From Chrysophaeum taylorii (Eukaryota; Sar; Pelagophyceae; Pelagomonadales; Pelagomonadaceae), in assembly GCA_029834535.1 (NCBI GenBank), contig JAQMWT010000163.1, positions 1 through 64,000 on the forward strand: a DNA stretch of 64,000 nt. Direction: 5' to 3'. Positions within the stretch are counted from its first letter, which is position 1. The number at the start of each line of letters is the position of its first letter. Positions 34,184 to 64,000 of the stretch are shown here, piece by piece. A program made the translations under genes and the position numbers. The notes beneath the pieces were generated by a model. The model ran no database searches. It had not been told where the DNA came from and saw only the letters and a program-made list of their open reading frames with translations.

Positions 34184-36697
34184 TTAGAGTCGAGAATCCC
34201 TCATCATCGGGGAAAAAACGACCTCGGTGAAGGCATCACCCCCGTCGGAAGAGTCGGCCGGTTTGGCTGAGGCGACGTGGCGCTGGCGCTTGGCCCAGGC
34301 GCGGAGGCCCTTTTTGAGGACCCCCGTGCCGTGGCCGTGGAGGATAAAGGCGTAGGGATGACGTCGGCCCCTTTGTTGTTGGAGGAGTCGATGGAGGAAG
34401 ATATCGGCCTGGATCTCGGCGTCCTCGAGGGTCAGGCCGCGGACGTCGAGGGTGTTTTCGGCCGTGCGGATGCGGCTTTCTGTGCGATCGTCGTCCGCCG
34501 CCAGGATGGTGGTAGTCCCGGGGGTGGGGAGATCAGCGTTGTCTCGGAGCGCGTAGGCGGCGCGGCGACTCAGAGCGTATTGTTGATTTTTCCGTACAAA
34601 GCTACGCTGGCGGTTTTTAGTTGTTGTTGTTTTTTCTTCCTCCGGCGCGAGCGCGAGGTCTTGGGGTTTGAGCTTGAGGGGCTTGGTGACGGCTTGGAGG
34701 GCGTCGATCTGAACCCGGACGAATTTGTTGTTGTTCGCTCGATCGACGACGGTGCCGCGCTGCATGAAACCGAGGCCCGGCTTGAGGATGACGACGCTGG
34801 TTTTGAGGTCAGGTATGGCCGTCAAGGGTTCGAGACCCTTGGCTTGCGCGTTGGATGCCTGGGCTTCGGTCTCGGCGGCCTCGCGCTGCTCGCGGAGCGC
34901 GTCGCGCTTGGTCTCGGTCGGCTCGAGGGCCGCGAGATTCGCCTCGAGGGCTTCGAGGCGCGACTGGTAGATGCGGGCCGCGTCGGCGCGCGCTTGCGCT
35001 GTTTCCTTGTCGGCGCGATCTCGAGCACGTCGGGCCTCGCGGATCGCGTCGGATGCTTCCTCGCGGGCCGCGACGGCCTCGGCCTCGGCTCGTCGGGCGT
35101 CGGCGATCGCGACCTCGAGGTCGCGAGCGAGATCGTCGAGGCGCGACTCCTCGGTCCCGAGGATATCTTTGGCGCGGTCGACGACCGCACAAGGGAGAGG
35201 CACGCGTCGCGCGGCCTCGAGGGCGCGGCTCTCGCCGGACATCCCGTACTCGCAACGGAACGTCGGTCGGCCTTCCGAGTCGGTCGTCATCGCGGCGACC
35301 TCGAATCCGGCGTCATTGTTGTTTGTGGCGAAGTCTTTGAGGGGGGCGTGGTGCGTGGTCGCGACGCACAAGGCACCCTCCTCGACGAGGCGTTCGAGGA
35401 CGGCCCGCGCGAGGGCGGCCCCCTGGACGGGATCGGTGCCCGACCCGAGCTCGTCGAGCAGGACGAGGGCCCCGGGCCGGGCCGCTCTCAACGCCGCGTC
35501 GACGATCCGGAGATGACCGACGTAGGTGGAGGTCGCCCCGAGCTCCTGGGCGTCCCCGACGTGCGCCAGGATCGGGTCGAAAAAACCGACTGTCGCTCCG
35601 CGCGCGGGCACGGGCACGCCGAGCTTGACGAGGCAAGCGGCGAGGCCGATCGCCTTGAGGAGCACGGTCTTGCCGCCGGCGTTGGCTCCCGAGATCACGA
35701 GGCACCGCGTCGGGTCCCCCAACCGCACGTCGTTACCCACCGGGCTCTCGAGCAGCGCGTGCCTGAGGTTGGAGGCCGTGAAACGGACGCCCGACGCGAC
35801 CTCGGGGATTTCGCCGTTCAAACGCCGGCCGACCTTCGCCCTCGCGGCGACGCCGTCCACGACTGCGGCCTGGAGAAGGCACTTCTCGAAAGCCGCCGAG
35901 TTGTTGCGCACCGCGCAGCTCAGCACCGCGAGGGCGGCCGTCTCCTCGCCGCGGACGCCGGCGAGCGCGGCCTTCCACGCGTTCGTGGGACCGACCAGCG
36001 CCGGCGGCTCGACGAAGAGCGTGCGCCCCGAGCGCGACGCGCCGTGGACCAAACCGCCCCGCGGGGCCCGGGTCACCGCCACAACGAACCGTCCGTCGAG
36101 CTCCAGGAACTCGCCCGCGTCGGCGAGCGCGAGGCCCTCGAGGGCCTTCGCTTTTGATTTTTCGATCGTCGAGCGCGCGAGGCGCTCGCGACGCCGCGCC
36201 GCGGCCAGCGCCGGGAACACCGCGTCCGCGAGCCGGCCGTCCTCGATGGCATCGGGGAGCGGCTCGCACCGCGCGGCGCGCACGGCCTCGGGGTCGAGGG
36301 CGAGGCCGTCGATGCCCGCGACGATCTCGGCGAGGCTCGCCAACGCGTCGCCGGCGTCGCGCACGGCGACGAGCTCCTCGAGCTCGAGGGTCAAACCCCG
36401 CACCGCGCGCCCCAAGCACTCGTCGACGTCCGCGTCGAGCGAGGCGAGACACCCAAAGTCGTCCGCCGGGAGCGCCGCGACGAGGGCGTACCTTCGCCGC
36501 GCTTCGCATTCGCTTTCGGCAAGGCACGCCTCGACGCGGTCAAACCCCTGCCGGCCGCGGTGGGTCTTCGCGGCGCGCCGCAGCTCCGCCACCACCTCGT
36601 CTACCCCGAGCGCGAGGTACGACGCCGCACGGGAGGCAGGCGCGACGACCGCCGCCGCCGTAACGGCGGCGGAAGCCAGGAGGGTCCACCTCATCAT
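34184..36697 (-). CDS. mutS2: MutS2-type ATPase, probably plastid-targeted
   Basis: The 837-residue protein has the complete MutS2 plan: core and lever helices (about 40-330), and the MutS ATPase with Walker A GANAGGKT (about 337-344), FFDPILAHVGDAQELGATST and Walker B LVLLDELGSGTDP (about 410-422). A long Ala/Arg/Glu coiled coil follows (about 525-615). The C-terminal Smr nuclease domain (about 750-815) has LDVRGLTLEDAE and HGHGTGVLKKGLR. MutS2 differs from mismatch-repair MutS; family members suppress recombination or act on collided ribosomes. The leader WTLLASAAVTAAAVVAPASR suggests a signal peptide and import into a plastid or another secretory-derived compartment. The ATG at 36697 (of two adjacent ATGs) is used; one GTG codon precedes it. 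The gene is divergent from the EGF-like gene. Confidence 0.93.
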   Translation of the reverse strand: MMRWTLLASAAVTAAAVVAPASRAASYLALGVDEVVAELRRAAKTHRGRQGFDRVEACLAESECEARRRYALVAALPADDFGCLASLDADVDECLGRAVRGLTLELEELVAVRDAGDALASLAEIVAGIDGLALDPEAVRAARCEPLPDAIEDGRLADAVFPALAAARRRERLARSTIEKSKAKALEGLALADAGEFLELDGRFVVAVTRAPRGGLVHGASRSGRTLFVEPPALVGPTNAWKAALAGVRGEETAALAVLSCAVRNNSAAFEKCLLQAAVVDGVAARAKVGRRLNGEIPEVASGVRFTASNLRHALLESPVGNDVRLGDPTRCLVISGANAGGKTVLLKAIGLAACLVKLGVPVPARGATVGFFDPILAHVGDAQELGATSTYVGHLRIVDAALRAARPGALVLLDELGSGTDPVQGAALARAVLERLVEEGALCVATTHHAPLKDFATNNNDAGFEVAAMTTDSEGRPTFRCEYGMSGESRALEAARRVPLPCAVVDRAKDILGTEESRLDDLARDLEVAIADARRAEAEAVAAREEASDAIREARRARDRADKETAQARADAARIYQSRLEALEANLAALEPTETKRDALREQREAAETEAQASNAQAKGLEPLTAIPDLKTSVVILKPGLGFMQRGTVVDRANNNKFVRVQIDALQAVTKPLKLKPQDLALAPEEEKTTTTKNRQRSFVRKNQQYALSRRAAYALRDNADLPTPGTTTILAADDDRTESRIRTAENTLDVRGLTLEDAEIQADIFLHRLLQQQRGRRHPYAFILHGHGTGVLKKGLRAWAKRQRHVASAKPADSSDGGDAFTEVVFSPMMRDSRL

Positions 36698-46655: not shown

Positions 46656-47687
46656 CAAGTGCAGGCCAGTAAGTTCACCTAGTCCCAATCTCTAACCCCA
46701 GTAAGTTCACCTGGTCCCAGTAAGTTTCATATAAGTTCACCTGGTCAGTAAGTTCACCTAGCTCACACCAACTCCTTTGAGCTCGTCGCTCTCGCCTCCG
46801 CCAATCTCAGCTGCTTTGATCCGCACGCGCCGCCAACCTTTGAGTTTACTCTAAAACCTTTTACTCTAAAGACCCCAGTATGTTCACCTGGTCCCAGTAA
46901 GTTCACCTGGTCACTCAGTTCACCTAGTCCCAATCTCAAACCCCAGTAAGTTCACGTGGTCCCAGTAAGTTCACTTATAGTGCGCGTGTAGACGCCGGGA
47001 GGGGGCTTATCGGTATTGCGCAGCACGTGTGGGGTAGGGTGGAGTCGTCGACCCAGATGAGTATATCCTCGGGGATGCCGATCGACAGAGAGCCACGTAG
47101 AGCTGGACGTGGCAGAAGACGGGCTTGGGAAAGAGGACGCCGACCTCGCGGGGCGTCTGGCCCTGGCTCTTGTTGATCGTTTGGCGTAGGTGGGCCTTAA
47201 GCGATACAGGTTGGAGGAGCCTCGGTGACAACGACACGATCGATTCTGGTACCGTTGCAGTGGCCGTGCGACGGGTCGAGGTCGCGAAGACTTTAAGCTC
47301 GCGATCAAAGTCAGCATCCCGTTGGTTGTCAGGGAGTTGAAAACTCTACTGTAAAGAGCGAGGCGTCGTCTTCCGACCCAGCCTAGTCAGCCGAAAAGAA
47401 CTCCGACGCCTCGTCTCCGGGAAAAAAGGCCGCGGTCATGCGCGCGTTGTCAGCATCGACAACATCGTTTCGACGGGGCGTGAGAATGGCGCGCTGGCTA
47501 AAAGAGCCGCCGCGGGTCGTGGAAATAGTGTGCGAGGTCGCCGTAGACGGCTTGGAGGATCACTGTCTGTGGCTCTCGCGCCTACGTGATCCTTACTCTC
47601 GCTCCTACATGACCCTTACCCTAAATCGAGGGACAAACAGACAGACAAACAAACAGACAAACATCTGTCGATTAGTAGTTAAGAAAC
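46656..47687 (-). repeat. Helitron-helicase-derived satellite unit U1
   Basis: This is the first of six minus-oriented, head-to-tail units. In unit orientation each has a TGTTTGTC-rich head, about 600 bp derived from the C-terminal half of a Helitron PIF1-like helicase, and about 350 bp of noncoding DNA. The noncoding part has GGTGAACTTACTGG repeats and a conserved GCGGATCAAAGCAGCTTAGA block, ending GGCCTGCACTTG. Recognisable helicase pieces, in differing frames, are FQRAILTPRR, LRNLDPSHGHCNGTR, INKSQGQTPREVGVL and KPVFCHVQLYVALCRS. They match the family's RAILTPxN, LLRNLDxxxGLCNGTR, TINKSQGQT and FxHGQLYVALSR motifs. No frame encodes a whole helicase. Confidence 0.85.
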
Positions 47688-48737
47688 TACAAGTGCAGGC
47701 CAGTAAGTTCGCCAGTAAGTTCACCTGGTCCCAATCTCTAATCCCAGTAAGTTCACCTGGTCCCAGTAAGTTCACCTAGTCCCAATCTCTAACCCCAGTA
47801 AGTTCGGCGTAAGCCCACTCGTGCTCACATCCACTCACCCCACTCTCCTTCGAGCTCGTCGCTCTCACCTCCGCCAATCTAAGCTGCTTTGATCCGTACA
47901 CGCCGCTAGCCCTTGCGTTCACTCTAAAAACCCCAGTAAGTTCACTTGGTCCCAGTAAGTTCACCTGGCCACTTAGTTCACCTAGTCCCAATCTCAAACC
48001 TCAGTAAGTTCACGGTCCCAGTAAGTTCACCTACGTGCGCGTGTAGACGCCGGGAGGGGGCTTATCGGTATTGCGCAGCACGTGTGGGGTAGGGTGGAGT
48101 CGTCGACCCAGATGAGTATATCTCCTCGGGGTTGCCGATCGACAGAGAGCCACGTAGAGCTGGACGTGGCAGAAGACGGGCTTGGGCAAGAGGACGCCGA
48201 CCTCGCGGGGCGTCTGGCCCTGGCTCTTGTTGATCGTTTGGCGTCGGCGGGCCTTAAGCGATACAGGTTGGAGGAGCCTCGGTGACAACGACACGATCGA
48301 TTCTGGTACCGTTGCAGTGGCCGTGCGACGGGTCGAGGTCGCGAAGACTTTAAGCTCGCGATCAAAGTCAGCATCCCGTTGGTTGTCAGGGAGTTGAAAA
48401 CTCTACTGTAAAGAGCGAGGCGTCGTCTTCCGACCCAGCCTAGTCAGCCGAAAAGAACTCCGACGCCTCGTCTCCGGGAAAAAAAGGCCGCGGTCATGCG
48501 CGCGTTGTCAGCATCGACAACATCGTTTCGACGGGGCGTGAGAATGGCGCGCTGAAAGAGCCGCCGCGGCTCGTGGAAATAGTCTGCGAGGTCGCCGTAG
48601 ACGGCTTGGAGGATCACTGTCTGGCTCTCGCGCCGACCTGATCCTTACTCTCGCTCCTACCTGATCCTTACCCTAAATCGAGGGACAAACAAACAGACAG
48701 ACAAACAGACAGACAAACATCTGTCGATTAGTGGTTA
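47688..48737 (-). repeat. Helitron-helicase-derived satellite unit U2
   Basis: Same order and orientation as U1, about 95 percent alike by eye. Its head junction with U3 lacks the terminal TCC (TTG then TAACCACTAATCG), so a few bases are lost there. Confidence 0.85.
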
Positions 48738-49797
48738 CAAGTGCAGGCCAGTGAGTTCGCCAGCAAGTTCACCTGGTCCCAATCTCTAACCCCAGTAAGT
48801 TCACCTGGTCCCAGTAAGTTCACCTAGTCCCAATCTCTAACCCCAGTAAGTTCGGCGTAAGCCCACTCGTGCTCACATCCACTCACCCCACTCTCCTTCG
48901 AGCTCGTCGCTCTCACCTCCGCCAATCTAAGCTGCTTTGATCCGTACACGCCGCTAGCCCTTGCGTTCACTCTAAAAACCCCAGTAAGTTCGCACTTGGT
49001 CTCAGTAAGTTCACCTGGTCACTTAGTTCACCTAGTCCCAATCTCTAACCCCAGTAAGTTCACCTAGTCCCAGTAAGTTCACCTACCGTGCGCGTGTAGA
49101 CGCCGGGAGGGGGCTTATCGGTATTGCGCAGCACGTGTGGGGTAGGGTGGAGTCGTCGACCCAGAAGGATATCCTCGGGGTTGCCGATCGACAGAGAGCC
49201 ACGTAGAGCTGGACGTGACAGAAGACGGGCTTGTGGGCAAGAGGACGCCGACCTCGCGGGGCGTCTGGCCCTGGCTCTTGTTGATCGTTTGGCGTCGGCG
49301 GGCCTTACGGGATACAGGTTGGAGGAGCCTCGGTGACAACGACACGATCGATCATGTATCTGGTACCGTTGCAGTGGCCGTGCGACGGGTCGAGGTTGCG
49401 AAGACTTTAAGCTCGCGATCAAAGTCAGCATGCCGTTGGTTGTCAGGGAGTTCAAAACTCGACTGTAAAGAGCGAGGCGTCGTCTTCCGACCCAACCTAG
49501 TCGGCCGAAAAGAACTCCGACGCCTCGTCTTCGGGAAAAAAAGGCCGCGGTCATGCGCGCGTTGTCAGCATCGACAACATCGTTTCGACGGGGCGTGAGA
49601 ATGGCGCGCTGGCTAAAAGAGCCGCCGCGGGTCGTGGAAATAGTCTGCGAGGTCGCCGTAGACGGCTTGGAGGATCACTTTCTGGCTCTCGCGCCTACCT
49701 GATGCTTACTCTCGCGCCTACATGATCCTTACCCTAAATCGAGGGACAAACAAACAGACAAACAGACAGACAAACATCTGTCGATTAGTAGTTAGGA
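48738..49797 (-). repeat. Helitron-helicase-derived satellite unit U3
   Basis: A full unit of 1060 bp. Its head begins TCCTAACTACTAATCG, directly abutting the GGCCTGCACTTG tail of U4. Confidence 0.85.
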
Positions 49798-50866
49798 CAA
49801 GTGCAGGCCAGTAAGTTCACCTATTCCCAATCTTTAACCGCAGTAAGTTCACCTGTTCTTGTTACGTTCACCTGGTCATTAAGTTCACCTAGTCCCAATC
49901 TCTAACCCCAGTAAGTTCGGCGGAAACCCACTCCTCCTCACACCCACTCACCCCACTCTCCTTGAGCTCGTCGCTCTCCCCCCCGCCAATCCAAGCTGCT
50001 TTAATCCGCACGCGCCGCCATTTACTCTAAAAACCCCAGTAAGCTCACATGGTCCCAGTAAGCAATCCAAGCTGCTTTAATCCGCACGCGCCGCCATTTA
50101 CTCTAAAAACCCCAGTATGTTCACCTGGTCCCAGTAAAAGTTCACCTGGTCACTCAGTTCACCTAGTCCCAATCTCTAACCCCAGTAAAAAGTTCACGTG
50201 GTCCCAGTAAGTTCACCTATAGTGCGCGTGTAGACGCCGGGAGGGGGCTTATCGGTATTGCGCAGCACGTGTGGGGTAGGGTGGAGTCGTCGACTCAGAA
50301 GAGCATATCCTCGGGGTTGCCGATCGACAGAGAGCCACGTAGAGCTGGACGTGGCAGAAGACGGGCTTGTGGGCAAGAGGACGCCGACCTCGCGGGGCGT
50401 CTGGCCCTGGCTCTTGTTGATCGTTTGGCGTCGGCGGGCCTTAAGGGATGATGGTTGGAGGAGCCTCGGCGACAACGACACGATCAATGATGTATCTGGT
50501 ACCGTTGCAGTGGCCGTGCGACGGGTCGAGGTTGCGAAGACTTTAAGCTCGCGATCAAAGTCAGCATCCCGTTGGTTCTCAGGGAGTTGAAAACTCGACT
50601 GTAAAGAGCGAGGCGTCGTCTTCCGATCCAACCTAGTCGGCCGAAAAGAACTCCGACGCCTCGTCTCCGGGAAAAAAAGGCCGCGGTCATGCGCGCGGCG
50701 TTGTCAGCATCGACAACATCGTTTCGACGGGGCGTGAGAATGGCGCGCTGGCTAAAAGAGCCGCCGCGGCTCGTGGAAATAGTCTGCGAGGTCGCCGTAG
50801 ACGGCTTGGAGGATCAATGCCTGGCTCGCGGGCCTACCTGATCCTTACCCTGAATCGGGGGACGTC
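49798..50866 (-). repeat. Helitron-helicase-derived satellite unit U4, head replaced
   Basis: Its noncoding part carries an internal tandem duplication of about 78 bp (about 49984-50060 and 50061-50138). Its head, with the TGTTTGTC run, is missing: the unit stops at CCTGAATCGGGGGAC and is followed by a LINE-like copy at 50867-51084. Confidence 0.82.
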
Positions 50867-51084
50867 ACCCTTCGTCGTACATACGTCCGGCGGCAGCATA
50901 CGTACGACTTAGGGGCGGGCCCGCCCTCTCTTCGCCTGCCCCACGCCTCGGCGATGACCCCGACTAGGTCCCGCGCACTTATCTCCGCCCGTCAGGCACA
51001 TCCCTCCTGCCCCACAAACCCACCCACATCCTTCATGCCCCCCACACACGCCGCTCCCCTCTTAGCAGTCGATTTAAAGACAAA
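50867..51084 (+). mobile_element. LINE-like copy inserted within the satellite array
   Basis: A plus-oriented, 5'-truncated copy of the dispersed family. It starts at GTCACCCTTCGTCG and ends CCCCTCTTAGCAGTCGAT, then TTAAAGACAAA, directly followed by the tail of U5. It replaces the head of U4, so insertion came with loss of about 70-100 bp or by template switching onto the satellite. Confidence 0.78.
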
Positions 51085-52142
51085 CAAGTGCAGGCCAGTA
51101 AGTTCGCCAGTAAGTTCACCTGGTCCCAATCTCTTACCCCAGTAAGTTCACCTGGCCCCAGTAAGTTCACCTAGTCCCAATCTCTAACCCCAGTAAGTTC
51201 GGTGTAAGCCCACTCGTGCTCACATCCACTCACCCCACTCTCCTCCGAGCTCGTCGCTCTCACCTCCGCCAATCTAAGCTGCTTTGATCCGTACACGCCG
51301 CTCGCCTTTGCGTTCACTCTTAACACCCCTGTAAGTTCACTTGGTCTCAGTAAGTTCACCTGGTCACTAAGTTCACCTAGTCCCAATCTCAAACCCCAGT
51401 AAGTTCACCTGGTCCCAGTAAGTTTACCTATAGTGCGCGTGTAGACGCCGGGAGGGGGCTTATCGGTATTGCGCAGCACGTGTGGGGTAGGGTGGAGTCG
51501 TCGACTCAGAAGAGGATATCCTCGGGGTTGCCGATCGACAGAGAGCCACGTAGAGCTGGACGTGGCAGAAGACGGGCTTCGCCAAGAGGACGCCGACCTC
51601 GCGGGGCGTCTGGCCCTGGCTCTTGGTGATCGTTTGGCGTCGGCGGGCCTTAAGGGATACAGGTTGGAGGAGCCTCGGTGACAACGACACGATCGATCAT
51701 GTATCTGGTACCGTTGCAGTGGCCGTGCGACGGGTCGAGGTTGCGAAGACTTTAAGCTCGCGATCAAAGTCAGCATGCCGTTGGTTGTCAGGGAGTTCAA
51801 AACTCGACTGTAAAGAGCGAGGCGTCGTCTTCCGACCCAACCTAGTCGGCCGAAAAGAACTCCGACGCCTCGTCTCCGGGAAAAAAAGGCCGCGGTCATG
51901 CGCGCGTTGTCAGCATCGACAACATCGTTTCGACGGGGCGTGAGAATGGCGCGCTGGCTAAAAGAGCCGCCGCGGGTCGTGGAAATAGTCTGCGAGGTCG
52001 CCGTAGACGGCTTGGAGGATCACTGTCTGGCTCTCGCGCCTACCTGATCCTTACTCTCGCGCCTACCTGATCCTTACCCTAAATCGAGGGACAAACAAAC
52101 AGACAAACAGACAGACAAACATCTGTCGATTAGTAGTTAGGA
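51085..52142 (-). repeat. Helitron-helicase-derived satellite unit U5
   Basis: A full unit of 1058 bp. Head and tail junctions with U6 are intact (TTG then TCCTAACTACTAATCG). Confidence 0.85.
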
Positions 52143-53172
52143 CAAGTGCAGGCCAGTAAGTTCACCTATTCCCAATCTCTAACCCCAGTAAGTTCACCTG
52201 GTCCCAGTAAGTTTCATATAAGTTCACCTGGTCAGTAAGTTCACCTAGCTCACACCAACTCCTTTGAGCTCGTCGCTCTCGCCTCCGCCAATCTAAGCTG
52301 CTTCGATCTGCACGCGCCGCCAACCTTTGAGTGAGTTTACTCTAAAAACCCTTTGCTCTAAAACCCCAGTATGTTCACCTGGTCACTCAGCTCACCTAGT
52401 CCCAATCTCCAACCCCAGTAAGTTCACCTGGTCCCAGTAAGTTCACCTGGTCCCAGTAAGTTCACCTATAGTGCGCGTGTAGACGCCGGGAGGGGGCTTA
52501 TCGGTATTGCGTAGCACGTGTGGGGTAGGGTGGAGTCGTCGACTCAGAAGAGGATATCCTCGGGGTTGCCGATCGACAGAGAGCCACGTAGAGCTGGACG
52601 TGGCAGAAGACGGGCTTGGGCAAGAGGACGCCGACCCCGCGGGGCGTCTGGCCCTGGCTCTTGCTGATCGTTTGGCGTCGGTGGGGCTTGAGGGATACAG
52701 GTTGGAGGAGCCTCGGTGACAACGACACGATCGATCATGTGTCTGGTACCGTTGCAGTGGCCGTGCGACGGGTCGAGGTTGCGAAGACTTTAAGCTCGCG
52801 CTCAAAGTCAGCATGCCGTTGGTTGTCAGGGAGTCGAAAACTCGACTGTAAAGAGCGAGGCGTCGTCTTCCGACCCAACCTAGTCTGCCGAAAAGAACTC
52901 CGACGCCTCGTCTCCGGGAAAAAAAGGCCGCGGTCATGCGCGCGTTGTCAGCATCGACAACATCGTTTCGACGGGGCGTGAGAATGGCGCGCTGAAAGCG
53001 CCGCCGCGGGTCGTGGAAATAGTCTGCGAGGTCGCCGTAGACGGCTTGGAGGATCACTGTCTGGCTCTCGCGCCTACCTGATCCTTACTCTCGCTCCTAC
53101 ATGATCCTTACCCTAAATCGAGGGACAGACAAACAGACAGACAAACAAACATCTGTCGATTAGTAGTTAGGA
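52143..53172 (-). repeat. Helitron-helicase-derived satellite unit U6
   Basis: The last unit of the minus-oriented array. Its helicase part gives the longest open frame in the array (52443-53057). Its TCCTAACTACTAATCG head (53157-53172) abuts a short LINE-like tail instead of another unit. Confidence 0.85.
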
Positions 53173-53203
53173 AGACTGCTAAGAGGGGGGGGTGTGTGTG
53201 GGG
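53173..53203 (-). mobile_element. 31-bp LINE-like end at the array inversion point
   Basis: AGACTGCTAAGAGGGG followed by GTGTGTGTGGGG is the common end of the dispersed family. It separates the minus-oriented array from the plus-oriented unit U7. Confidence 0.65.
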
Positions 53204-54188
53204 ATGTCTGTTTGTCCCTCGATTTAGGGTAAGTATCGGGTAGGCGCGAGAGTAAGGGTCAGGTAGGCGCGAGAGCCAGACAGTGATCCTCCCAAGCCGT
53301 CTACGGCGACCTCGCAGACTATTTCCACGACCCGCGGCGGCTCTTTCAGCGCGCCATTCTCACGCCCCGTCGAAACGATGTTGTCGATGCTGACAACGCG
53401 CGCATGACCGCGGCCTTTTTTTTCCCGGAGACGAGGCGTCGGAGTTCTTTTCGGCTGACTAGGCTGGGTCGGAAGACGACGCCTCGCTCTTTACAGTAGA
53501 GTTTTCAACTCCCTGACAACCAACGGCATGCTGAATTTGATCGCGAGCTTAATGTCTTCGCAACCTCGACCCGTCGCACGGCCACTGCAACGGTACCAGA
53601 ATCGATCGTGTCGTTGTCACCGAGGCTCCTCCAACCTGTATCGCTTAAGGCCCGCCTACGCCAAACGATCAACAAGAGCCAGGTCCAGACGCCCCGCGAG
53701 GTCGGCGTCCTCTTTCCCAAGCCCGTCTTCTGCCACGTCCAGCTCTACGTGGCTCTCTGTCGATCGGCATCCCCGAGGATATACTCATCTGGGTCGACGA
53801 CTCCACCCTACCCCACACGTGCTGCGCAATACCGATAAGCCCCCTCCCGGTGTCTACACGCGCACTATAAGTGAACTTACTGGGACCACGTGAACTTACT
53901 GGGGTTTGAGATTGGGACTAGGTGAACTGAGTGACCAGGTGAAACTGGGACCAGGTGAACATGCTGGGGTTTTTAGAGTAAAGGGTTTTTAGAGTAAACT
54001 CAAAGGTTGGCGGCGCGTGCGGATCAAAGCAGCTTAGATTGGCGGAGGCGAGAGCGACGAGCTCAAAGGAGTTGGTGTGAGCTAGGTGAACTTACTGACC
54101 AGGTGAACTTATACGAAACTTACTGGGACCAGGTGAACTTACTGGGGTTAGAGATTGGGACTAGGTGAACTTACTGGCCTGCACCTTG
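53204..54188 (+). repeat. Helitron-helicase-derived satellite unit U7, inverted
   Basis: A unit in plus orientation, head-to-head with U6. It begins in the TGTTTGTCCCTCG part, so the TCCTAAC head is missing. It ends at GGCCTGCAC-CTTG (one extra C), next to unique DNA. Confidence 0.85.
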
Positions 54189-55107
54189 TTTTCCTCTGTC
54201 CGCAAGACAAGACGACGACGACGATTGGTGGGATCTTCGCTCGTAGTATAATATGAAACAGCGCTCTTCCGGCCAACAGCGCGCGCGATGTTTGCATCGT
54301 TAGAGACGGCGTCTCGTGTGCGCGTGTTGTGGGCGAGTGACGATCAGCTCCAGAGATGCATGTATTTTCCGACTGGGCTGTGACGATTTCTGTTTCAATC
54401 TCCTGACGCTCTTGTTTTCCTTCCTTCACGCCCACTACTCTCGCCTCCGTGCGTCAGGTCTTCTCGCGTAGGTATTTGTTCGTCCAACTCGTCTCCGAAC
54501 GAGCCGGCTCCCAGACGCGGACGACTTGATATTCGGCCGCTCGCGATCAGCCACGAACCACCGCTCGAAGTGACTGTCTTCGCAAGTGTGTCTCCGTGTT
54601 GGGGGCACGTGCTTGTTGGCATCACCATCGTACTACAGCCGAGACGTCGTCGTCGACTTGCACCCCGCCACACCTTCGCAATATACCCTAGTAATAAATA
54701 GTCTCCGTTGTTGCGCGATTGCCACGAACATGCTTGCGGGTGGCGTACACCTAATCTCGCCAGATCCAGATCAGATCCCCCCCCACCCCCCAATCAAAAA
54801 AAAAAACCTCTGTACATGCGTATAGACAAATTACCCAGAAAATGTAGTCACGGGCGATCACGGCAAGCTCGCAGCGCCGAAGAAAAGGGCGCCAGCCAAT
54901 CTTAGAAATCTTGGTGCGCGATGATATGTACACATATGGGGAGAGAAACCAATCGATCGATGTAGCTCTGCTCCGAGTTGTAAACATAGGGTGAGCGCCC
55001 CAGGCGCGCGCAAATAATGAGTGCGTTGACTATACAATAATCTCTCGACGTGTGAGGCCTTCTCGTTCGTCGGGAGGAGGCATCTCGTGACGAACTTTGA
55101 TAGTCCG
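54189..55107. other. gap between satellite array and the CHAT-helicase gene
   Basis: No gene is recognised. It holds an A-run near 54796-54806 and is A/T-richer than average. The 3' untranslated region of the CHAT-helicase gene should lie at its right end. Confidence 0.5.
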
Positions 55108-58100
55108 CTAGCAGGCACCGAGCACCTTACACAGGATCGCTTTGTCGTTCTTAAGCTCTAAGATCGCGTTCTTTGCAGCTTGTTCCTGCGCATGACGTTT
55201 TTTGGAGCCGCTCGCCGGCAGAAAGGCTCTTCCTTCTCTGCATTTCACGATGAAGCAAAACTCGTTAGTGACAGCGCGGGATGTTTCCTCGAGCGTCAAG
55301 CCAAGAAGAGGCAGTTTTTGATTGAGCTCGTTCATCAACATTCTGTAATTTCGTTGTTGTTTGTCGCACTCCACAACACTGTAGAAAATCCTATAGTTGT
55401 CACTTATTGAATTTTCCTGAGGGCTCGGGGACATTTTTTCGCCGAGGTTATCGGAACTGCGATGGCCCCCTCCGTTAGGAGATGGTAGCGACCCGCGTTT
55501 TATTGCACGGTAATATGAGCCCGGCCTGCAAATCAAATCAGCTTGCAATCATAGCAGCCGAACGATCGAAAAAACGAACGAACGATCGAACGAACGAACG
55601 AAAAAAAATGAAGGAAGGAACTCACGGGATGCCTTCGAGCCGCCCTCGATTGTGCAGGTAGGCACATACCACGTAAGCTGCTATGTTCTCCGCTTGCTTC
55701 TTTTGTGACCGCGAAATGGTGCACGGCCATTCTTTCTCGATACCACAACCAGGCGGTACATGCACCGACGCGATGTACCGGCCTTTTTTTTTCTGCGAAT
55801 TAAAGGTGAATGCATTTGGATCGGGCTGTACGCTGTACGTAGGCCGTACACCTTTGCTCCCTGATGTCCTGTGGCAATATTCTGCGAGTATCGCTGGTGC
55901 GTCTTCCTCGACGAACCGACGGGGCCTATCGCTCCTCGCAACTACGACGCTCCGTTGAGAATCCTCCTTCACCAAGTTAATCGCAGCGGCCATCTGGCGT
56001 TCCTTGGCCCGAAACGTGGCGACAACGCTCGCATCTGTAGTGATAAGAATGGTCTTGCCGTCGCACTTTCGTGCCCTGCCTCGCGACTGTTGCAACGCCG
56101 TTGCAGTGGAGGCCGCGTCGAAGCGAATAACAACACGACAGTCGACGATGTCAACCCCCTCTTCTAAGACGCTCGTCGCCACCAAGATTTTCACGTCTCC
56201 TTTTCTAAATTTCTCAACCTTTGCCTGCTGCTCTTTGGCATCCATTCCCGGCGGTCTGGCGAGGACGTCCGAGCAGCTGCTGCTAGGCAACGACGACGAG
56301 CGTTGGCCGTGGCCCACAACGTAATCACACTCGGCATCTGCACGAATTTCGTCCTTGACAAAGCTATTGATGAGAGAAGATAGGTGCTTGCAACTCCAGC
56401 GCGTATTAACGAAAATCAAAACTCTGTCATCAGGATCGCTATCGCTGAGTTCATCGCGCAAGATTTTCCGCAGGGCCGTGAATTTGCTGCTCGTCGCCGC
56501 TTGACCGACGAGATTGTGGTCGGAAGAAGACTGGCACGAAAGAAGGTCCTGAATAAGATCGTCCTTTCCTATCTTGCTCACGTGCGCGTCTAGTGCCTCC
56601 GCGTCTCGCGGTGACGTGGCTCTCAAGTCCTTCCAGTCTTGTTTGAGAAATCGCTCCAAGCACGTTCGCATTGCTCCAAGGATGGAGCTAACACCACAAT
56701 CCACCAAAACGGAATATTGCTCGACGAGGTCGACGATGTGATTCAATACGAAGAACGCGGCGGACGTCGACGACGACTCGCGCGCGTTTGCGAGTGTTGA
56801 TTGGAACTTGCACGATCGGAGCGCGCGGAGCCACGAGGCCATGGTAGCCCGTTTCTCTTCCTGCTCCTCCTTCGTGTGGTGGTCTTGATTTCGTTCTACG
56901 TCTTCGCCAAAACTATTAACAACGAGACAAAACGTGCTCTGATCGATGTTCTTCAGTGCCTGCAGTAGTCTGTTCAAGTATTGTTGCATAATTTTTTCTC
57001 TGTACGCTTCGTCTCTCGATATTTCGACCGTCACGGCGTAAAGCTTTGGCGCGGGGCAGATCTCGTCGAGCTCAAGTTTGTGCTTGATTGGAACCCTCAA
57101 CGATGATTCTCCGAGAATCCAGCACACGTCTTTTATGTTTTGAACGGTCGACTCTTCGCTGTCGCCGTCGGCAGGTGTCGCCGACAGCCCAATGATGTCG
57201 GGACCTGACGGGGATTTAGTAAATTTGGGAAAAATACAAGGAGGATGAAAAGCCGGACTCTGTGCGACGAAGTTTGGGCGGCAACGCGAAGTAGTGGTCG
57301 ATCATAATCCTAACGTAGTCGTGTTTGCCGCGACAATGGTGAGCTTCGTCGACGACGAGGAGACAAAAGTCGGATAGCGCAAACGTATGTTGGTTGAGGA
57401 GGTTCAAGAACAGTCCACCGGTGAAGAATTGAAAGCGCTTAGAAGCGACGTTGTCTCGCACGAAGTCGCATTCTTCACCGCCTGCGCGTAGGTCGGTAAC
57501 ATAAAAAAAATCGTCGCGCGTCACACAACAAGCATGAAAGAGTACAAAGGCCAAACACACGCCAAAAGAAATCATCATCTTCTTCAGGAGCGCACACAAG
57601 CACGGACGCGGCGGTGTGTTTGTGTTTGTGTTTTTGTTTTGTGCGACCGCGAGAACAAGCAGCAGAGGGGTCAGCAAAAAAAAAGTATAAGTAGAATTCC
57701 TCACAATATTTCCCAATATCCTCGAGAGGAACGTCGCCCGCTGCGAAGCATCGGAACGCCCGAGCCTGTTGAAACAAGAGCGGGATAGTCGGCGTGATGA
57801 AGGCCACCTTGAGAGCCCAGTTTTGTTTCGCGTCCGCGGCCTCCCGCATAAGCTGAAACGCAACAGCAGACTTTCCGGCGCCCGTGGGCATGCAAACGAG
57901 ACTGTTCTGGTTTCGGCTCGCGTCGATCATCTCCTGTTGGTAGTTTCGTAGCTTGATTGGCTCGACAGGAATAAACTCGGCGTTCAATTCGTCCGACTCG
58001 TACTGTTCGTCGACGCGGCGCCGTCGTTCGGCGCTCAATCGCGAATTCCTGCGCATCTCGTCGCGCTTAGTCTCCTTGATGGCCCGTGACGTCGGCATGT

Positions 58101-59031
58101 CCAGTAGGTATTTATGGTCTAAGGAAGCACTCTCGAGCTCGGCCTTGGCGAACCGAAAGGCTTCTGGCAGCTTCTGGCCCGACGCGACCCCCGACCAGAG
58201 CGAGCTCGCGAAGCGAATCGCCGTTTCGTCTAAAACCGCGCCATCGTGCGCGATGACCCAGGGGACGCCGCCGTAATCGGCCAACATACGCGCCTGGTGT
58301 TTACCATGGCACGAGTTGATGACGACACCCCGCAATTCGTGGCCGTCTTCGCTAACTGCCTTCTGATACTCGCGGATCGTGTTCGCGAGTCCGACGTCCC
58401 TCGCGACGAGCTTCTTCGTGTCGTCGTCGTCGTCGGTATCGTCGTCGCGACCAAAGGCGAGGGTGCAAAAAGGGTCTTTGTCGTAGCCGTGGCACGAAAA
58501 GTGGACGTAGTGGTAGTAGTCTTTATCTTGAATTGATCGTTGGAGGAGCACGTTCAATTTTCTCAACGATATCGGACCGATATCGACCAATTCGCAGCGC
58601 GGAAGGAAAGCGGGCCGCGGCGTGATGCTGAGGTCCTTATTATCGTCGTCGTCGTCGGGCACCGCATGCTCTTCCAATGCTTTTTCGATCGCTTTTCTTT
58701 CTCCTTCCAAGTCGATTTCGTCCTCGTCTCGAGCGCAAAACTGGATCCAAAGAATTCGAATAGTTGCTGGAGGCCGCGACGCCTGTAGAGACCGTGCCAA
58801 AGCGCAGTCCGTTGGTTCCATCTTGTTGTCGCTTATCCGTTTCAACAGCCTCGAAAGCGCCCCCTCCCATTCCGCTTTGGACTCGAAGAACGGAGGTAAC
58901 AACCCTTCCGGACAGATCCTCCTCAGTCTCTCCTCAGTCTCGCGAGCTGCCATCTTTAGACTGTCTCCCCGGCGCTTGCGACGAGGGGTCTCGATGTCGG
59001 GAAGACGGGGAGACTGGTGGTTCGCAACCAT
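55108..59031 (-). CDS. CHAT protease fused to Dicer-type helicase, Dicer dimerisation domain and dsRBD
   Basis: My model joins four exons (59031-57705, 57481-57269, 57204-55626, 55525-55108) into 1178 residues. All junctions keep frame. Introns of 223, 64 and 100 bp start GTGAGG, GTCGCA and GTGAGT and end in CAG. Domains in order: a CHAT caspase-like protease at about 85-300, with catalytic His181 in HFSCHG and Cys241 in INSCHG; and an SF2 helicase of the Dicer/RIG-I clade, with LRNYQQEMID, Walker A MPTGAGKS (381-388), VVDEAHHC (DEAH 487-490), GLSATP (519-524), LIFVNTR, VATSVLEEGVDI and QQSRGRAR. A Dicer dimerisation (DUF283) domain follows at about 944-1040 (APAILAEYC to YLHNRGRLEG), then a dsRBD at about 1098-1165 (SGSKKRHAQEQAAKNAILEL). 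PAZ and RNase III are absent. An RNA-triggered protease is inferred. An alternative ATG at 59139 lies in a LINE-like tail and adds a poly-Glu leader. Confidence 0.85.
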
Positions 59032-59102
59032 TTCTTCTTCTTCTTCTTCTTCTTCAACAACTACTTTTTTTTCATAGGTTCGACCGAGTTTAAGTAAGAA
59101 AA

Positions 59103-59150
59103 AACTCCCCACACACACCCCCAGCTTAGCAGTCGACATTTAAAGAAAAA
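59103..59150 (+). mobile_element. LINE-like 3' end between two divergent genes
   Basis: CTCCCCACACACACCCCCAG, then CTTAGCAGTCGACATTTAAAG is the common end of the dispersed family. It sits in the 163-bp gap between the CHAT-helicase start (59031) and the sialidase start (59195). It supplies an ATG on the minus strand (59139) in frame with the CHAT-helicase ORF. Confidence 0.7.
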
Positions 59151-59194
59151 ACGCGACTCCCTCCTACTTAACGGACGCGATAATAAAACACTAT

Positions 59195-60287
59195 ATGCAG
59201 GTGTTGTTGTTGGCAGCGTTGGTCATAGTAGTAATAATAATAAGGACGAATGGGGTGATGACCACCACAAGGGGCGTGTTTTCAAATGGTCTGGCCAATA
59301 TCACGTGCTATCGCATTCCCGTGGTGGTCGAGACGAGTTTGCGGTCGCTGTTGGCATTTGCCGAAGCGCGACACGGGTCGTGCAGTGACTCTGCGAGTCG
59401 CGAGATTGCCGTGCGGCGGTCGACGGACGCGGGGCGCAGCTGGGGCCCCGTGGTGTTTGCGGCGGGGCCCCTCGTGCAGAATCCGGTGGCGGCGACGACC
59501 ACCACAAGTGGGCGGGTCGTGTTGGTGTTCGCGTCGAAAAACGCGTCGGGAAATCTCGCAGGCAACGGCGCCGCGTTTTCCGACGACGACGGTTTGAGCT
59601 GGACGCAGCGCGCCGTGGACTTTGGCGTCGCGAGCGGATGGATGCCGGGTCCCGGCGCCGCGGCAGTCCTCGGCGATAGGATTGTAGTCGCATCGCATCG
59701 CGGCCAAAACCAAATCGACTATTCTTCTTACTCGGACGACGACGGCGAGACGTGGACAACGAGTCCGTCGTTCTTGGAGGGCGTGAACGAGGCCGCGATT
59801 TGGCCGAACGGGGGGGGGGGTGATGCTGAACATGCGGAACAAGAACGCGCCGACCGAAGGCAGAGCGATCAGCAGATCTCGCGACGGCGGCGAGACCTGG
59901 GACCCCGTGACGTTCGATCCAACGCTTGTTTCGCCGGTGTGCGAGGCGAGCCTCGTGCGCATCAACGGCAGCCTCTTTTTTTCGAACCCGGCCTCGGCGA
60001 CCGCGCGCGTCAACCTAACCGTCCGCCGCAGCGACGACGACGGCGTATCGTGGCTCGCCTCGACGCTCGTCGTCGACGCGGGACCATCCTACGGCTACTC
60101 GTGCCTCGTTCCCGGTGGGGTCCACGACGCGACGGCCTTGCTGGGGGGTATCCTCTACGAGGCTGCGGGCAAGACGTCCATCGACTTCGCGACCTTTGCG
60201 CTCGACGCCGCCTCGTGGCCGAAGCACCAACCCGATTCTTCTTCTTCTTCTTCTTCTAGAGATGCGCTGGTAGTCGCGGTCAACTAG
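59195..60287 (+). CDS. secreted sialidase (GH33-like), one frameshift at a poly-G run
   Basis: The product has a signal peptide (MQVLLLAALVIVVIIIRTNG), then TCYRIPVVV, with the Arg of the RIP motif at residue 40, and LLAFAEARHG, the sialidase pattern for the first blade. Asp boxes (S/T-x-D-x-G-x-x-W) follow: STDAGRSW, SDDDGLSW, SDDDGETW, SRDGGETW and SDDDGVSW. Five boxes and RIP indicate a six-bladed exo-sialidase that frees terminal sialic acid from glycans outside the cell or in a lumen. The reading frame changes at an 11-base G run (59810-59820). Everything downstream, to VVAVN at 60287, continues in the next frame and is well conserved. A sequencing error in the homopolymer or a young mutation explains this. 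The total length of about 360 residues is normal. ATG at 59195. Confidence 0.82.
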
Positions 60288-60385
60288 TACTATTGCACGA
60301 CGACGACGACGACGATATTATTTTCAGAGCGCAACACGGGGGACCTCGAGTTATGATTATTCATGGCAAAAAAAAAAAGTTGGCG

Positions 60386-61594
60386 TCAGGGAGCCGTCCT
60401 CTCGGAAGCGTCGTCGAGGTTGTCGGTCTCGGCCGATCCCTTTTTGAGGAGCCGGCCCGCAGAGGCGGAGGTGTTTTCGGGCGCTTCCGGAACGGACGGG
60501 GCCGGGTCGGCGGGGGGCGTGCGGTGGATCGTCGGCGGGTCCTGGTCGTCCGAGACAACGAGGAGTAGGGAGGCCTTTTCTTCTTCTTCTTTTTCATCAT
60601 CATTCTGGACATAACTGCGGGTCGTCGCGTCCTGGAGCACAAAAAAAGCGGAAAAGTGCTTTTTCGAGGAGGAGGCAGCCCGGAAGTGGCGGAGGCAGCG
60701 GCGGCGGTGGTGGTCTGGGGAGGTGTCGCCTCGTCGCGCGGCAGCGATCGCGGCGCGCACGAAATTGGCCGACGAGAAGGCGGCGATCTGGGCGAGAAGC
60801 AAGGCGTCGGCGGCCACCCTCAGCACGGCGAGGCCGATGCGCGGCGAGGAGACGACCTGCGCTCGCCACTTGCCCTCGTCTAAAGCGCCGAGTTGCTCGT
60901 TCTGGCGCGAGGCGACGCGACGATTCAATAGGAACAAAACGTCTCTCGCGAACCAGGCGACAACCATCAGAGTCGAGAGACCCGCCGTGTCGCCGCGGAC
61001 ACAGTTCTTGCGGAGCTGGGGTGCGGCGACGAGGACGTCGCAGACGGCGACGCAGGTCCCGACGAATCTCGAGTACGCGTCGCGCGTCGCGAAAAGCCTG
61101 AGCGCGGACGCGGATACGGCGACGACGAAAAGCGAGGCCACGACCACGACTTCGACGTAGGGGGCGAGGTCGTCCCAGGCCCAAAACGAGAGCCTGAGCG
61201 TGCGCCAGAGCGCGGATACGGCTTCGCGGTTCCCTCTGATCCACGTCCGGAACAGCTTTTTTAAGTTGCTCGCGAGGGCCGCGGACGTCGTCCCGTGGCG
61301 CCGCGGCACCGCCTGCTTCTTGCGTCGCGCGGAGATCACCGCGTCCAGCAGATAGAACTGCATAAGAAGGAGCGTGATCGAGTAGACGAGGTACGACCAC
61401 TCGCGGACGCGGCGGATTATCCAGAAGGCGACGCGCAGCACGCTCAACAGCACCACCACCAGGCACGTCGTCGAAGAGAAACCGTCCTTTCCGCTCCGCT
61501 TCACCTCGTACAATTGGGGCATGTACGTGGCGACGGGGTAGAACGCGTACGTCACGCGGGCCGCGCCGCGGGCGACGCTCGACAGCAACAACAT
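60386..61594 (-). CDS. PQ-loop repeat membrane transporter
   Basis: The 402-residue protein carries two PQ-loop repeats. One is near the N-terminus (FYPVATYMPQLYEVKRSGKD, then GFSSTTCLVVVLLSVLRVAF); the second is near 195-235 (VAAPQLRKNCVRGDTAGLST, then LMVVAWFARDVLFLL). About seven membrane helices are expected, as in SLC66 (PQLC1, cystinosin) and related lysosomal or Golgi exporters of amino acids and in lipid flippase regulators. The Ser/Asp/Glu-rich C-terminal tail from about 300 is likely cytosolic and contains DDEKEEEEKASLLLV, whose acidic-Leu motif may sort to endosomes or vacuoles. The ATG at 61594 is used; 15 upstream codons lack ATG. The substrate is unknown. Confidence 0.82.
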   Translation of the reverse strand: MLLLSSVARGAARVTYAFYPVATYMPQLYEVKRSGKDGFSSTTCLVVVLLSVLRVAFWIIRRVREWSYLVYSITLLLMQFYLLDAVISARRKKQAVPRRHGTTSAALASNLKKLFRTWIRGNREAVSALWRTLRLSFWAWDDLAPYVEVVVVASLFVVAVSASALRLFATRDAYSRFVGTCVAVCDVLVAAPQLRKNCVRGDTAGLSTLMVVAWFARDVLFLLNRRVASRQNEQLGALDEGKWRAQVVSSPRIGLAVLRVAADALLLAQIAAFSSANFVRAAIAAARRGDTSPDHHRRRCLRHFRAASSSKKHFSAFFVLQDATTRSYVQNDDEKEEEEKASLLLVVSDDQDPPTIHRTPPADPAPSVPEAPENTSASAGRLLKKGSAETDNLDDASERTAP

Positions 61595-61673
61595 TTTAGT
61601 GTTGGTTTCAAGATAGGGGGTTAGGAGGAGGAAGCTCAAAGGTTAGCGAGAACGTGCGCTGAACAAGTAGGGG

Positions 61674-62718
61674 TCCTAACTACTAATCGACAGATGTTTG
61701 TCTGTCTGTTTGTTTGTTTGTCTGTTTGTCTGTCCCCCGATTTAGGGTAAGGATCAGGTAGGCCCGCGAGCCAGGCAGGCATTGATCCTCCAAGCCGTCT
61801 ACGGCGACCTCGCAGACTATTTCCACGACCCGCGGCGGCTCTTTCAGCGCGCCATTCTCACGCCCCGTCGAAACGATGTTGTCGATGCTGACAACGCGCG
61901 CATGACCGCGGCCTTTTTCCCCGGAGACGAGGCGTCGGAGTTCTTTTTCGGGAGACTAGGTTGGGTCGGAAGACGACGCCTCGCTCTTTACAGTCGAGTT
62001 TTCAACTCCCTGACAACCAACGGCATGCTGACTTTGATCGCGAGCTTAAAGTCTTCGCAACCTCGACCCGTCGCACGGCCACTGCAACGGTACCAGATAC
62101 ATGATCGATCGTGTCGTTGTCACCGAGGCTCCTCCAACCTGTATCCCTTAAGGCCCGCCTACGCCAAACGATCAACAAGAGCCAGGGCCAGACGCCCCGC
62201 GAGGTCGGCGTCCTCTTGCCCAAGCCCGTCTTCTGTCACGTCCAGCGCTACGTGGCTCTCTGTCGATCGGCAGCCCCGAGAATATGCTCTTCTGAGTCGA
62301 CGACTCCACCCTACCCCACACGTGCTGCGCAATACCGACAAGCCCCCTCCCGGCGTCTACACGCGCACTGTAGGTGAACTTACTGGGACAAGATGAACTT
62401 ACTGGGGTTAGAGATTGGGACTATGTGAATATAGTGACCACGTGAGCTTACTGAGACCAGGTGAACTTACTGGGTTTTTTAGAGTAAACTCAAGGATTGG
62501 CGGCGCGTGCGGATCAAAGCAGCTTGGATTGGCGGGGGTGAGAGCGACGAGCTCAAAGGAGTGGGTGTGAGCACGAGCGGTTTTACACCCAACTTACTGG
62601 GGTTAGAGATTTGGACTAGGTGAACTTACTGACCAGGTGAACTTACTGGGACCAGGTGACCAGGTGAACTTACTGGGGTTAGAGATTCGGACTAGGTGAA
62701 CTTACTGGCCTGCACTTG
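61674..62718 (+). repeat. Helitron-helicase-derived satellite unit U8
   Basis: A full plus-oriented unit of 1045 bp. Its TCCTAACTACTAATCG head abuts unique DNA behind the PQ-loop gene, which marks the true 5' end of the unit. The helicase part gives a 204-codon open frame at 61782-62396, including FQRAILTPRRNDVVDADNAR and PGDEASEFF. Confidence 0.85.
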
Positions 62719-63978
62719 TCCTAACTACTAATCGACAGATGTTTGTCTGTCTGTTTGCTTGTCTGTCTGTTTGTCCCTCGATTTAGGGTAAGGATCAGGT
62801 AGGCGCGAGAGTAAGGATCAGGTAGGCGCGAGAGCCAGACAGTGATCCTCCAAGCCGTCTACGGCGACCTCGCAGACTATTTCCACGACCCGCTGCGGCT
62901 CTTTCACCGCGCCATTCTCACGCCCCGTCGAAACGATGTTGTCGATGCTGACAACGCGCGCATGACCGCGGCCTTTTTTTCCCGGAGACGAGGCGTCGGA
63001 GTTCTTTTCGGCTGACTAGGCTGGGTCGGAAGACGACGCCTCGCTCTTAACAGTTGAGTTTTCAACTCCCCGACAACCAACAACATGCTGACTTTGATCG
63101 CGAGGTTAAAGTCTTCGCAACCTCGACCCGTCGCACGGGCACTGCAACGGTACCAGATACATGATCGATCGTGTCGTTGTCACCGAGGCTCCTCCAACCT
63201 CTATCCCTTAAGGCCCGCCGACGCCAAACGATCACCAAGAGCCAGGGCCAGACGCCCCGCGAGGTCGGCTTCCTCTTGGCGAAGCCCGTCTTCTGCCACG
63301 TCCAGCTCTACGTGGCTCTCTGTCGATCGGCAACCCCGAGGATATCCTCTTCTGAGTCGACGACTCCACCCTACCCCACACGTGCTGCGCAATACCGATA
63401 AGCCCCCTCCCGGCGTCTACACGCGCACTGTAGGTGAACTTAGTGGGACCAGGTGAACTTACTGGGGTTTGAGATTGGGACTAGGTGAGCTGAGTGCCCA
63501 GGTGAACTAACTGGGACCAGGTGAACTAACTGGGACCAGGTGAGCTTACTGGGGTGTTTAGAGTAAACTCAAGGGTTGGCGGCGGGTGCGGATCAAAGCA
63601 GCTTGGATTGGCGGGGGTGAGAGCGACGAGCTCAAAGGAGAGTGTGGTGAGTGGGTGTAAGCACGAGTGGGTTTACGCCGAACTTACTGGGGTTAGAGAT
63701 TGGGACTAGGTGAACTTACTGGCCTGCACTTGGTGAACTGAGCGACCAGGTGAACATACTGGGGTTTTTAGAGTAAAGGGTTTTTAGAGTAAGCTCAAAG
63801 GTTGGCGGCGCGTGCGGATCAAAGCAGCTTAGATTGGCGGAGGCGAGAGCGACGAGCTCAAAGGAGTTGGTGTGAGCTAGGTGAACTTACTGACCAGGTG
63901 AACTTCTACGAAACTGGAACCAGGTGAACTTACTGGGGTTAGAGAGTGGGAGTAGGTGAACTTACTGGCCTGTACTTG
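62719..63978 (+). repeat. Helitron-helicase-derived satellite unit U9, extended tail
   Basis: The normal unit ends at GGCCTGCACTTG (63732). A second, partial noncoding tail (63733-63978) follows, ending GGCCTGTACTTG, so the unit is 1260 bp. It directly abuts U8 and U10 head-to-tail. Confidence 0.83.
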
Positions 63979-64000
63979 TCCTAACTACTAATCGACAGAT
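63979..64000 (+). repeat. head of satellite unit U10, cut by the window end
   Basis: TCCTAACTACTAATCGACAG and two more bases start another unit, showing that the array continues past the window. Confidence 0.85.

Follow-up and report, generated by a model that had tools for sequence, protein, structure and literature searches.

A CHAT-type protease domain joined to a Dicer-type helicase in the pelagophyte alga Chrysophaeum taylorii

A single gene of the pelagophyte alga Chrysophaeum taylorii joins a CHAT-type protease domain to the helicase half of Dicer. It occupies positions 59031-55108 (minus strand) of a 64,000-nucleotide stretch, hereafter the window, which is part of contig C163 of a 70.8-Mb assembly. 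Four exons with GT-AG splicing encode a protein of 1178 amino acids without an internal stop, and this protein contains, in order, a CHAT-type protease, a helicase of the Dicer/RIG-I clade, a DUF283 domain and a weak C-terminal double-stranded RNA-binding domain (dsRBD). The architecture is real and recurs in relatives of the gene. These proteins are read here, with a probability of about 0.5, as a small algal family in which a CHAT cysteine protease is mounted on the ATPase half of Dicer that recognises double-stranded RNA (dsRNA), the RNase III half being absent, and which would act as a dsRNA-triggered defence protease. No description of the layout was found in the open-licence literature among the matches listed; as far as was searched there, the CHAT-Dicer architecture is undescribed, in agreement with the first-pass annotation of this DNA, which knew of no described eukaryotic protein of this kind.

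Gene structure

Both the CHAT domain and the first helicase motifs are encoded by exon 1, and the fusion is therefore independent of splicing. The parts of the gene model are as follows.

58780..59031, minus strand: N-terminal segment, residues 1-84 (translated gene model)
57705..59031, minus strand: exon 1, 1327 nt, CHAT and first helicase motifs (LRNYQQ, PTGAGKS) in a single reading frame
57482..57704, minus strand: intron 1, GT-AG, 223 nt, junction backed by relatives
57269..57481, minus strand: exon 2, 213 nt, 71 codons, contains DEAH (57339-57350), not in GenBank model CTAYLR_009404
57205..57268, minus strand: intron 2, GT-AG, 64 nt, junction compared with relatives
55626..57204, minus strand: exon 3, 1579 nt, remainder of helicase domain 1, a stretch in the presumed HEL2i position, helicase domain 2 and DUF283
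55526..55625, minus strand: intron 3, GT-AG, 100 nt, junction compared with relatives
55108..55525, minus strand: exon 4, 418 nt, contains the stop and a dsRBD-like region at the C-terminus (roughly 55135-55353)

Residue spacing at the three junctions was compared with an environmental protein (P0002), a second protein from outside the genome (P0003) and one of two paralogues on contig C316 (P0182; the other is P0183). Spacing was identical in eight of nine comparisons, the sole deviation being one extra residue at junction 3 of P0002, and 8 to 18 of the 25 junction-flanking residues were identical. An upstream in-frame ATG at 59139 could add 36 residues to the N-terminus.

The GenBank model CTAYLR_009404 (P0001; 770 amino acids) begins at residue 71 and splices exon 1 to exon 3, and is thereby short of precisely those 71 codons that make up exon 2, DEAH among them; it stops shortly past QSRGRARK and hence also lacks the C-terminus. 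This model was rejected as the whole protein since P0002, P0003, P0182 and P0183 all possess the DEAH part and the C-terminus. As the genome annotation drew on RNA-seq according to the available text of its source (PMC10366177), skipping of exon 2 could nevertheless produce a real in-frame isoform. A misreading of two genes as one, which would have separated the CHAT and helicase parts, is judged to be excluded by their shared exon and by the single-frame paralogues. The single predicted transcript with CHAT, helicase and DUF283 in this order, as proposed in the first-pass annotation, was confirmed by the four-exon model, by Pfam and by relatives with the same order.

The CHAT-type protease domain

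58072..58767, minus strand: CHAT-type protease domain, putatively caspase-like in fold, spanning roughly residues 89-320 (profile, hhalign, Pfam, Foldseek)
58486..58503, minus strand: HFSCHG, residues 177-182, with predicted catalytic His181 (58489-58491)
58303..58320, minus strand: INSCHG, residues 238-243, with predicted catalytic Cys241 (58309-58311)

The two motifs noticed in the first pass were located, and the predicted catalytic His and Cys were invariant within them in all four aligned CHAT domains, which represent three independent lines, the two paralogues being near-identical over most of CHAT. The other three domains are 34-41% identical to that of the window. Judged from these alignments, His181 and Cys241 are consistent with a CHAT protease dyad.

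Homology of the domain to CHAT proteases is firm by the family profile, though its scores fall below the Pfam cut-off of 24 bits, which is a library threshold and not a biological feature. Pfam CHAT (PF12770) matched residues 169-303 of the whole protein with an E-value of 0.058 (13.3 bits) and an excised piece with 0.0033 (17.4 bits), scored 15.8 bits in P0002 and gave no match at E<=1 in P0182 and P0183. When the PDB was searched with the family CHAT profile (A6), the SAVED-CHAT protease 8tl0 was found at 8.5e-7 and the runner-up at 0.24. In hhalign, the same family profile reached 97.2% over 164 columns, with both motifs in register, against a single C. taylorii locus above the Pfam cut-off (L003), and 97.8% over 83 columns, covering the Cys half, against an alignment of four CHAT loci of this genome (picked by eye from its six distinct CHAT loci). 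The reversed profile against the four-row alignment gave 0.2% and another locus alone (L001) 0.8%.

A structure model of low confidence (predicted local distance difference test, 52) had 8tl0 as its best Foldseek match (3.3e-6). In this low-confidence comparison SAVED-CHAT came first, instead of the separase and Csx29 named beforehand. Neither of these two was among the PDB profile matches at E<=10, kinship with them being still possible. The window protein shows no Peptidase_C50 (PF03568) hit at E<=1, and the separase match of the genome is on a separate contig (C89; 3.0e-34). A search of prokaryote genomes for CHAT relatives yielded 65 pattern hits and no relatives, and NCBIfam and PADLOC returned only helicase-type matches.

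Elsewhere in the genome, Pfam CHAT was above its cut-off at seven further loci (L001-L007; contigs C25, C521, C84, C647, C480, C658 and C419), those on C25 and C521 having identical scores. By eye, an NSC motif followed by an F..AFY stretch, as in the window CHAT, was seen in L003, L004 and L007.

Helicase, DUF283 and dsRBD

57170..57957, minus strand: helicase domain 1, residues 359-525, split by introns 1 and 2 (Pfam ResIII 8e-18, DEAD 2e-17)
56045..56482, minus strand: helicase domain 2, residues ~755-900, includes QQSRGRAR (56069-56092; Helicase_C, residues 755-891, 1.2e-17)
55634..55897, minus strand: DUF283/Dicer_dimer (PF03368), about residues 950-1037 (Pfam 5.8e-7; also found by the genome-wide search)

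The motifs PTGAGKS, DEAH (residues 487-490), SATP, LVATSVLEEG and QQSRGRAR (residues 885-892) are all present, and from the roles of such motifs in this helicase family the protein is predicted to be an RNA-dependent ATPase. Judged by profile matches and phylogeny, the helicase is kin to those of Dicer and RIG-I, as first proposed from DEAH and QQSRGRAR. The best PDB matches were an ancestral Dicer construct (1.3e-41), DCL1 (2.8e-36) and Dicer-2 (6.1e-28), with RIG-I at 2.1e-29 and MDA5 at 4.1e-26. A tree was built from 24 helicases of the Dicer/RIG-I type, with Hef assigned as the outgroup; five of them, namely those of the window protein, P0002, P0003, P0182 and P0183, grouped on a single branch (100/99). 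This branch fell into a larger group (95/96) with a further outside relative (P0004) and, on a long branch, nematode DRH. When the DRH and Amoebophrya rows were omitted, the five family members and P0004 formed one branch (96/96).

ResIII, DEAD, Helicase_C and Dicer_dimer all scored above their Pfam cut-offs, as did dsrm (9e-6); the CHAT score fell short. The dsrm match above cut-off lies on the DUF283 stretch (residues 952-1030) and not at the C-terminus, where the predicted dsRBD reached an E-value of 0.025 (15.6 bits, under the cut-off). This C-terminal region aligns with the C-terminal dsRBD region of P0002, and P0002, P0182 and P0183 have their best dsrm stretch near the C-terminus, with whole-protein scores above the cut-off. 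The claimed C-terminal dsRBD is weak in the window protein. None of six proteins scanned (that of the window, P0002, P0003, P0004, P0182 and P0183) matched RNase III (PF00636) or PAZ (PF02170). At E<=1, Pfam also showed no CARDs, no RIG-I C-terminal domain (PF11648) and no TPR for the window protein.

Paralogues and duplicated contig ends

Dicer_dimer was detected at five loci of the genome, i.e. the window gene, an inverted copy of it, a pair of genes on C316 and a copy at one end of C377, and all five belong to the CHAT-Dicer family or are copies of its genes. The C316 paralogues P0182 and P0183 are 16 kb apart, each occupy one unbroken frame (1448 and 1486 codons) and repeat the domain order of the window gene; the helicase, Dicer_dimer and two dsrm stretches were identified by Pfam and CHAT by alignment. 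The C. taylorii genome thus contains at least three distinct CHAT-Dicer genes, and a search for relatives with the same order, as proposed in the first pass, found it in P0002 and both paralogues.

The paralogue frames are longer than the window gene at their N-terminal ends.

L021:3295-7641 and L022:3190-7650: paralogue frames whose extended N-terminal region matches no Pfam family

This region is strongly diverged between the two paralogues and is common to P0002 (pairwise E 1e-7 with P0183 and 1e-4 with P0182). No trace of it was detected in the window by tblastn (best E 0.15). Between the C316 pair, identity is 95-100% in the helicase blocks and 26-70% over residues 1-420 when scored in blocks of 60 residues, a contrast that suggests gene conversion. 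Non-synonymous divergence (dN) was lower than synonymous divergence (dS) in seven of eight regions. For the helicase, dN was 0.0059 and dS 0.0204 on 14 differences (7 + 7), and the DUF283 figure rests on three. The exception was the C-terminal half of CHAT (dN 0.0249, dS 0.0218, ten differences).

Two candidates were rejected as additional family members. The locus at C163:70763-74848 (L009, L024), just past the window, is the inverted copy: a fold-back match of 9.7 kb covers window positions 52186-61888 at 98.3% (28 mismatches, 136 gap positions), and the gene stretch itself has no substitutions and ten indels of 1-3 bases, with all ten gaps in the copy. The C377 copy has 0 mismatches and 22 gap positions over 5254 columns as compared to the second C316 locus. 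Both are probably unpolished assembly duplicates, that on C163 being a fold-back artefact. A contig end, C168:1-3209 (L010), repeats window positions 57387-60616 at 99.2% (4 mismatches, 23 gap positions) and probably represents a duplicated end.

The alternative that two genes or an assembly error have been taken for one gene arises from the differing GenBank model and from the fold-backs and duplicated contig ends in this part of the assembly. An artefact of this kind is very improbable, as the domain order recurs in the environmental protein P0002 and, on contig C316, in two paralogues that are each read in a single frame.

Relatives outside the genome

In a homologue search with residues 350-1178, 7993 candidates were scored, of which 613 passed E<=0.001. 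The best 120 of the 613 were headed by the GenBank record of the gene itself, P0002 (6.5e-160), P0003 (3.2e-128) and P0004 (1.4e-48), and plant Dicers followed from 6.6e-35; among the matches listed, three outside relatives therefore stand above the level of Dicer. As the search requires shared five-residue words, this does not prove that relatives are rare. P0002, from a 4335-base environmental contig, carries CHAT, helicase, Dicer_dimer and dsrm in one frame. P0003 starts within the CHAT domain and continues through the helicase and Dicer_dimer; its first 95 residues matched a CHAT profile built without P0003 at 52 bits (E 4.7e-15 among 2002 sequences). The N-terminus of P0004 scored 4.5 bits against the CHAT profile, the best of 2000 shuffles being 4.2, so that a CHAT part is not established; P0004 grouped with the family on a single branch solely in the tree lacking two long rows, DRH otherwise intruding.

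A further search, for which four aligned sequences served as query, yielded 63 proteins; the five of them examined by further scans (P0121, P0122, P0126, P0129 and P0131) had no CHAT match. Over 181 proteins, only P0001, P0002 and P0003 passed inclusion with the CHAT profile, all being training rows or duplicates of these. With the CHAT part alone as query, only the GenBank record of the gene was recovered (1 protein among 3655 candidates), and this search is insensitive because it missed P0002. Viral contigs yielded 107 pattern hits and four distant helicases (L026-L029) that are 22-27% identical to the family helicase part.

A possible dsRNA-triggered protease

In the proposed mechanism, the helicase, DUF283 and dsRBD would bind viral or transposon dsRNA and close around it with ATP. 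Closure would free or cluster the CHAT domain, whose His/Cys dyad would then cut another protein or its own chain and so start a defence or cell-death response. In Craspase, as the available text describes it, the CHAT pocket of TPR-CHAT is rearranged when non-self RNA binds, which turns on cleavage with a His-Cys dyad (PMC9729208); by analogy, dsRNA binding may switch on the fused protease. The excess of dS over dN in most paralogue regions, on few differences, is consistent with this proposal. The first-pass interpretation of an algal counterpart of RIG-I-like signalling is borne out for the CHAT domain with its His and Cys, the Dicer-type helicase, DUF283 and the relatives; the signalling role itself is one that we infer.

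Some observations favour other readings of the protein. The CHAT domain is divergent and below the Pfam cut-off, its C-terminal half differs between the paralogues by 8 non-synonymous versus 2 synonymous changes, and with 53 of 277 columns invariant the chance retention of both His and Cys is estimated at a few per cent. These would suit a catalytically dead CHAT that serves for docking or assembly on a Dicer-type RNA helicase, a reading made unlikely by the presence of both residues in every domain aligned. Nothing in the window ties the gene to defence and the relatives are all without assigned function, as might be anticipated for an RNA helicase with housekeeping duties and an attached regulatory protease, acting in RNA quality control or on organelle RNA and without a part in immunity. 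Duplication with a diverged N-terminus and a near-identical helicase, however, resembles a conflict gene more than a core gene, and the few outside relatives above Dicer level point the same way within the limits of the word-based search; a housekeeping role is accordingly rated as quite unlikely.

The remaining points concern RNA interference (RNAi). The genome has a single RNase III match (C387:27161-27400, L025; a 358-residue frame), and diatoms have split Dicer parts, including a Thalassiosira pseudonana helicase with a C-terminal dsRBD, according to the available text of PMC3145265; this diatom protein is a possible relative. The helicase might therefore hand dsRNA to a separate RNase III in an RNAi-like pathway, with CHAT trimming a partner. 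The RNase III frame, however, looks plastid-directed from its N-terminus by eye, and no Piwi match was found in the genome (the control matched in one of 14 genomes). A dicing role is less likely because neither a Piwi match nor Dicer_dimer outside the CHAT-Dicer family was detected in the genome, and an RNAi accessory is improbable. Searches for PAZ, RdRP and ArgoL1 gave no match and were uninformative, the controls also being silent (0/14 genomes). As searches were performed exon by exon, so that introns may hide matches, and as the gene set covers 81.5% of BUSCOs in the available text of PMC10366177, the claim is limited to Argonaute and a canonical Dicer not having been found.

A wider form of the dsRNA-triggered protease reading can be put forward only tentatively: an innate sensor carrying a Dicer-derived dsRNA receptor and its own executioner protease on one chain, which in pelagophytes would replace RNAi, the sensing half of Dicer being kept and Argonaute and canonical Dicer lost. 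In bacteria, RNA-activated proteases occur in CRISPR-linked systems, and in eukaryotes helicases of the Dicer/RIG-I type are among the main dsRNA sensors; one natural protein combining the two would connect both worlds. For marine algae possibly devoid of RNAi it would provide a model of antiviral defence open to experimental test, and it would be a candidate tool for converting a dsRNA signal into protein cleavage; the genes are compact enough for expression and testing.

Other features near the gene

A sialidase-like frame (by eye) at 59195-60287 is divergent from the CHAT-Dicer gene; it is broken near a G run in the window, and the fold-back copy reads through there in one frame. A dispersed repeat occupies 46656-54144, 61674-63979 and 20769-21597, with many stretches of ~0.2-2 kb in both orientations and 84-96% mutual identity. 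By eye and from known motifs, the frame at 34184-36697 is presumably MutS2-like and that at 10411-12072 presumably resembles a nitrite/sulfite reductase.

Comparison with known systems

The window protein shares its helicase and DUF283 with Dicer (DCL1, Dicer-2) and differs in having a CHAT protease ahead of the helicase, with RNase III and PAZ absent from all six family proteins scanned. RIG-I-like receptors (RIG-I, MDA5, LGP2 and nematode DRH) have a related helicase preceded by an N-terminal effector or signalling part. RIG-I and MDA5 carry CARDs N-terminal to the helicase, the position occupied by CHAT in the window protein, and DUF283 and the dsRBD are found where the RIG-I C-terminal domain sits.

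The SAVED-CHAT protease (8tl0) is the top match of the window CHAT by profile and, in a low-confidence model, by fold, but its CHAT is joined to SAVED, a cyclic-nucleotide sensor, and that of the window to a Dicer-type helicase. Fungal gasdermin-cleaving CHAT proteins have an NLR-type receptor architecture and lack a Dicer helicase. They do share a eukaryotic CHAT domain with the window protein and, by cleaving gasdermin, place it in a cell-death pathway, according to the available text of PMC10197012. Separase (Peptidase_C50) is described as related to CHAT in the available text of PMC9729208, within a common protease clan, and is encoded by its own gene in C. taylorii. Craspase (TPR-CHAT Csx29 with Cas7-11) likewise has a CHAT protease governed by RNA recognition, as described in the same source, but consists of two proteins with a guide RNA and TPR repeats. 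Partnership with Cas7-11 and a guide RNA would not be expected for a eukaryotic gene, and the window protein instead combines the protease with a presumed helicase sensor on one chain.

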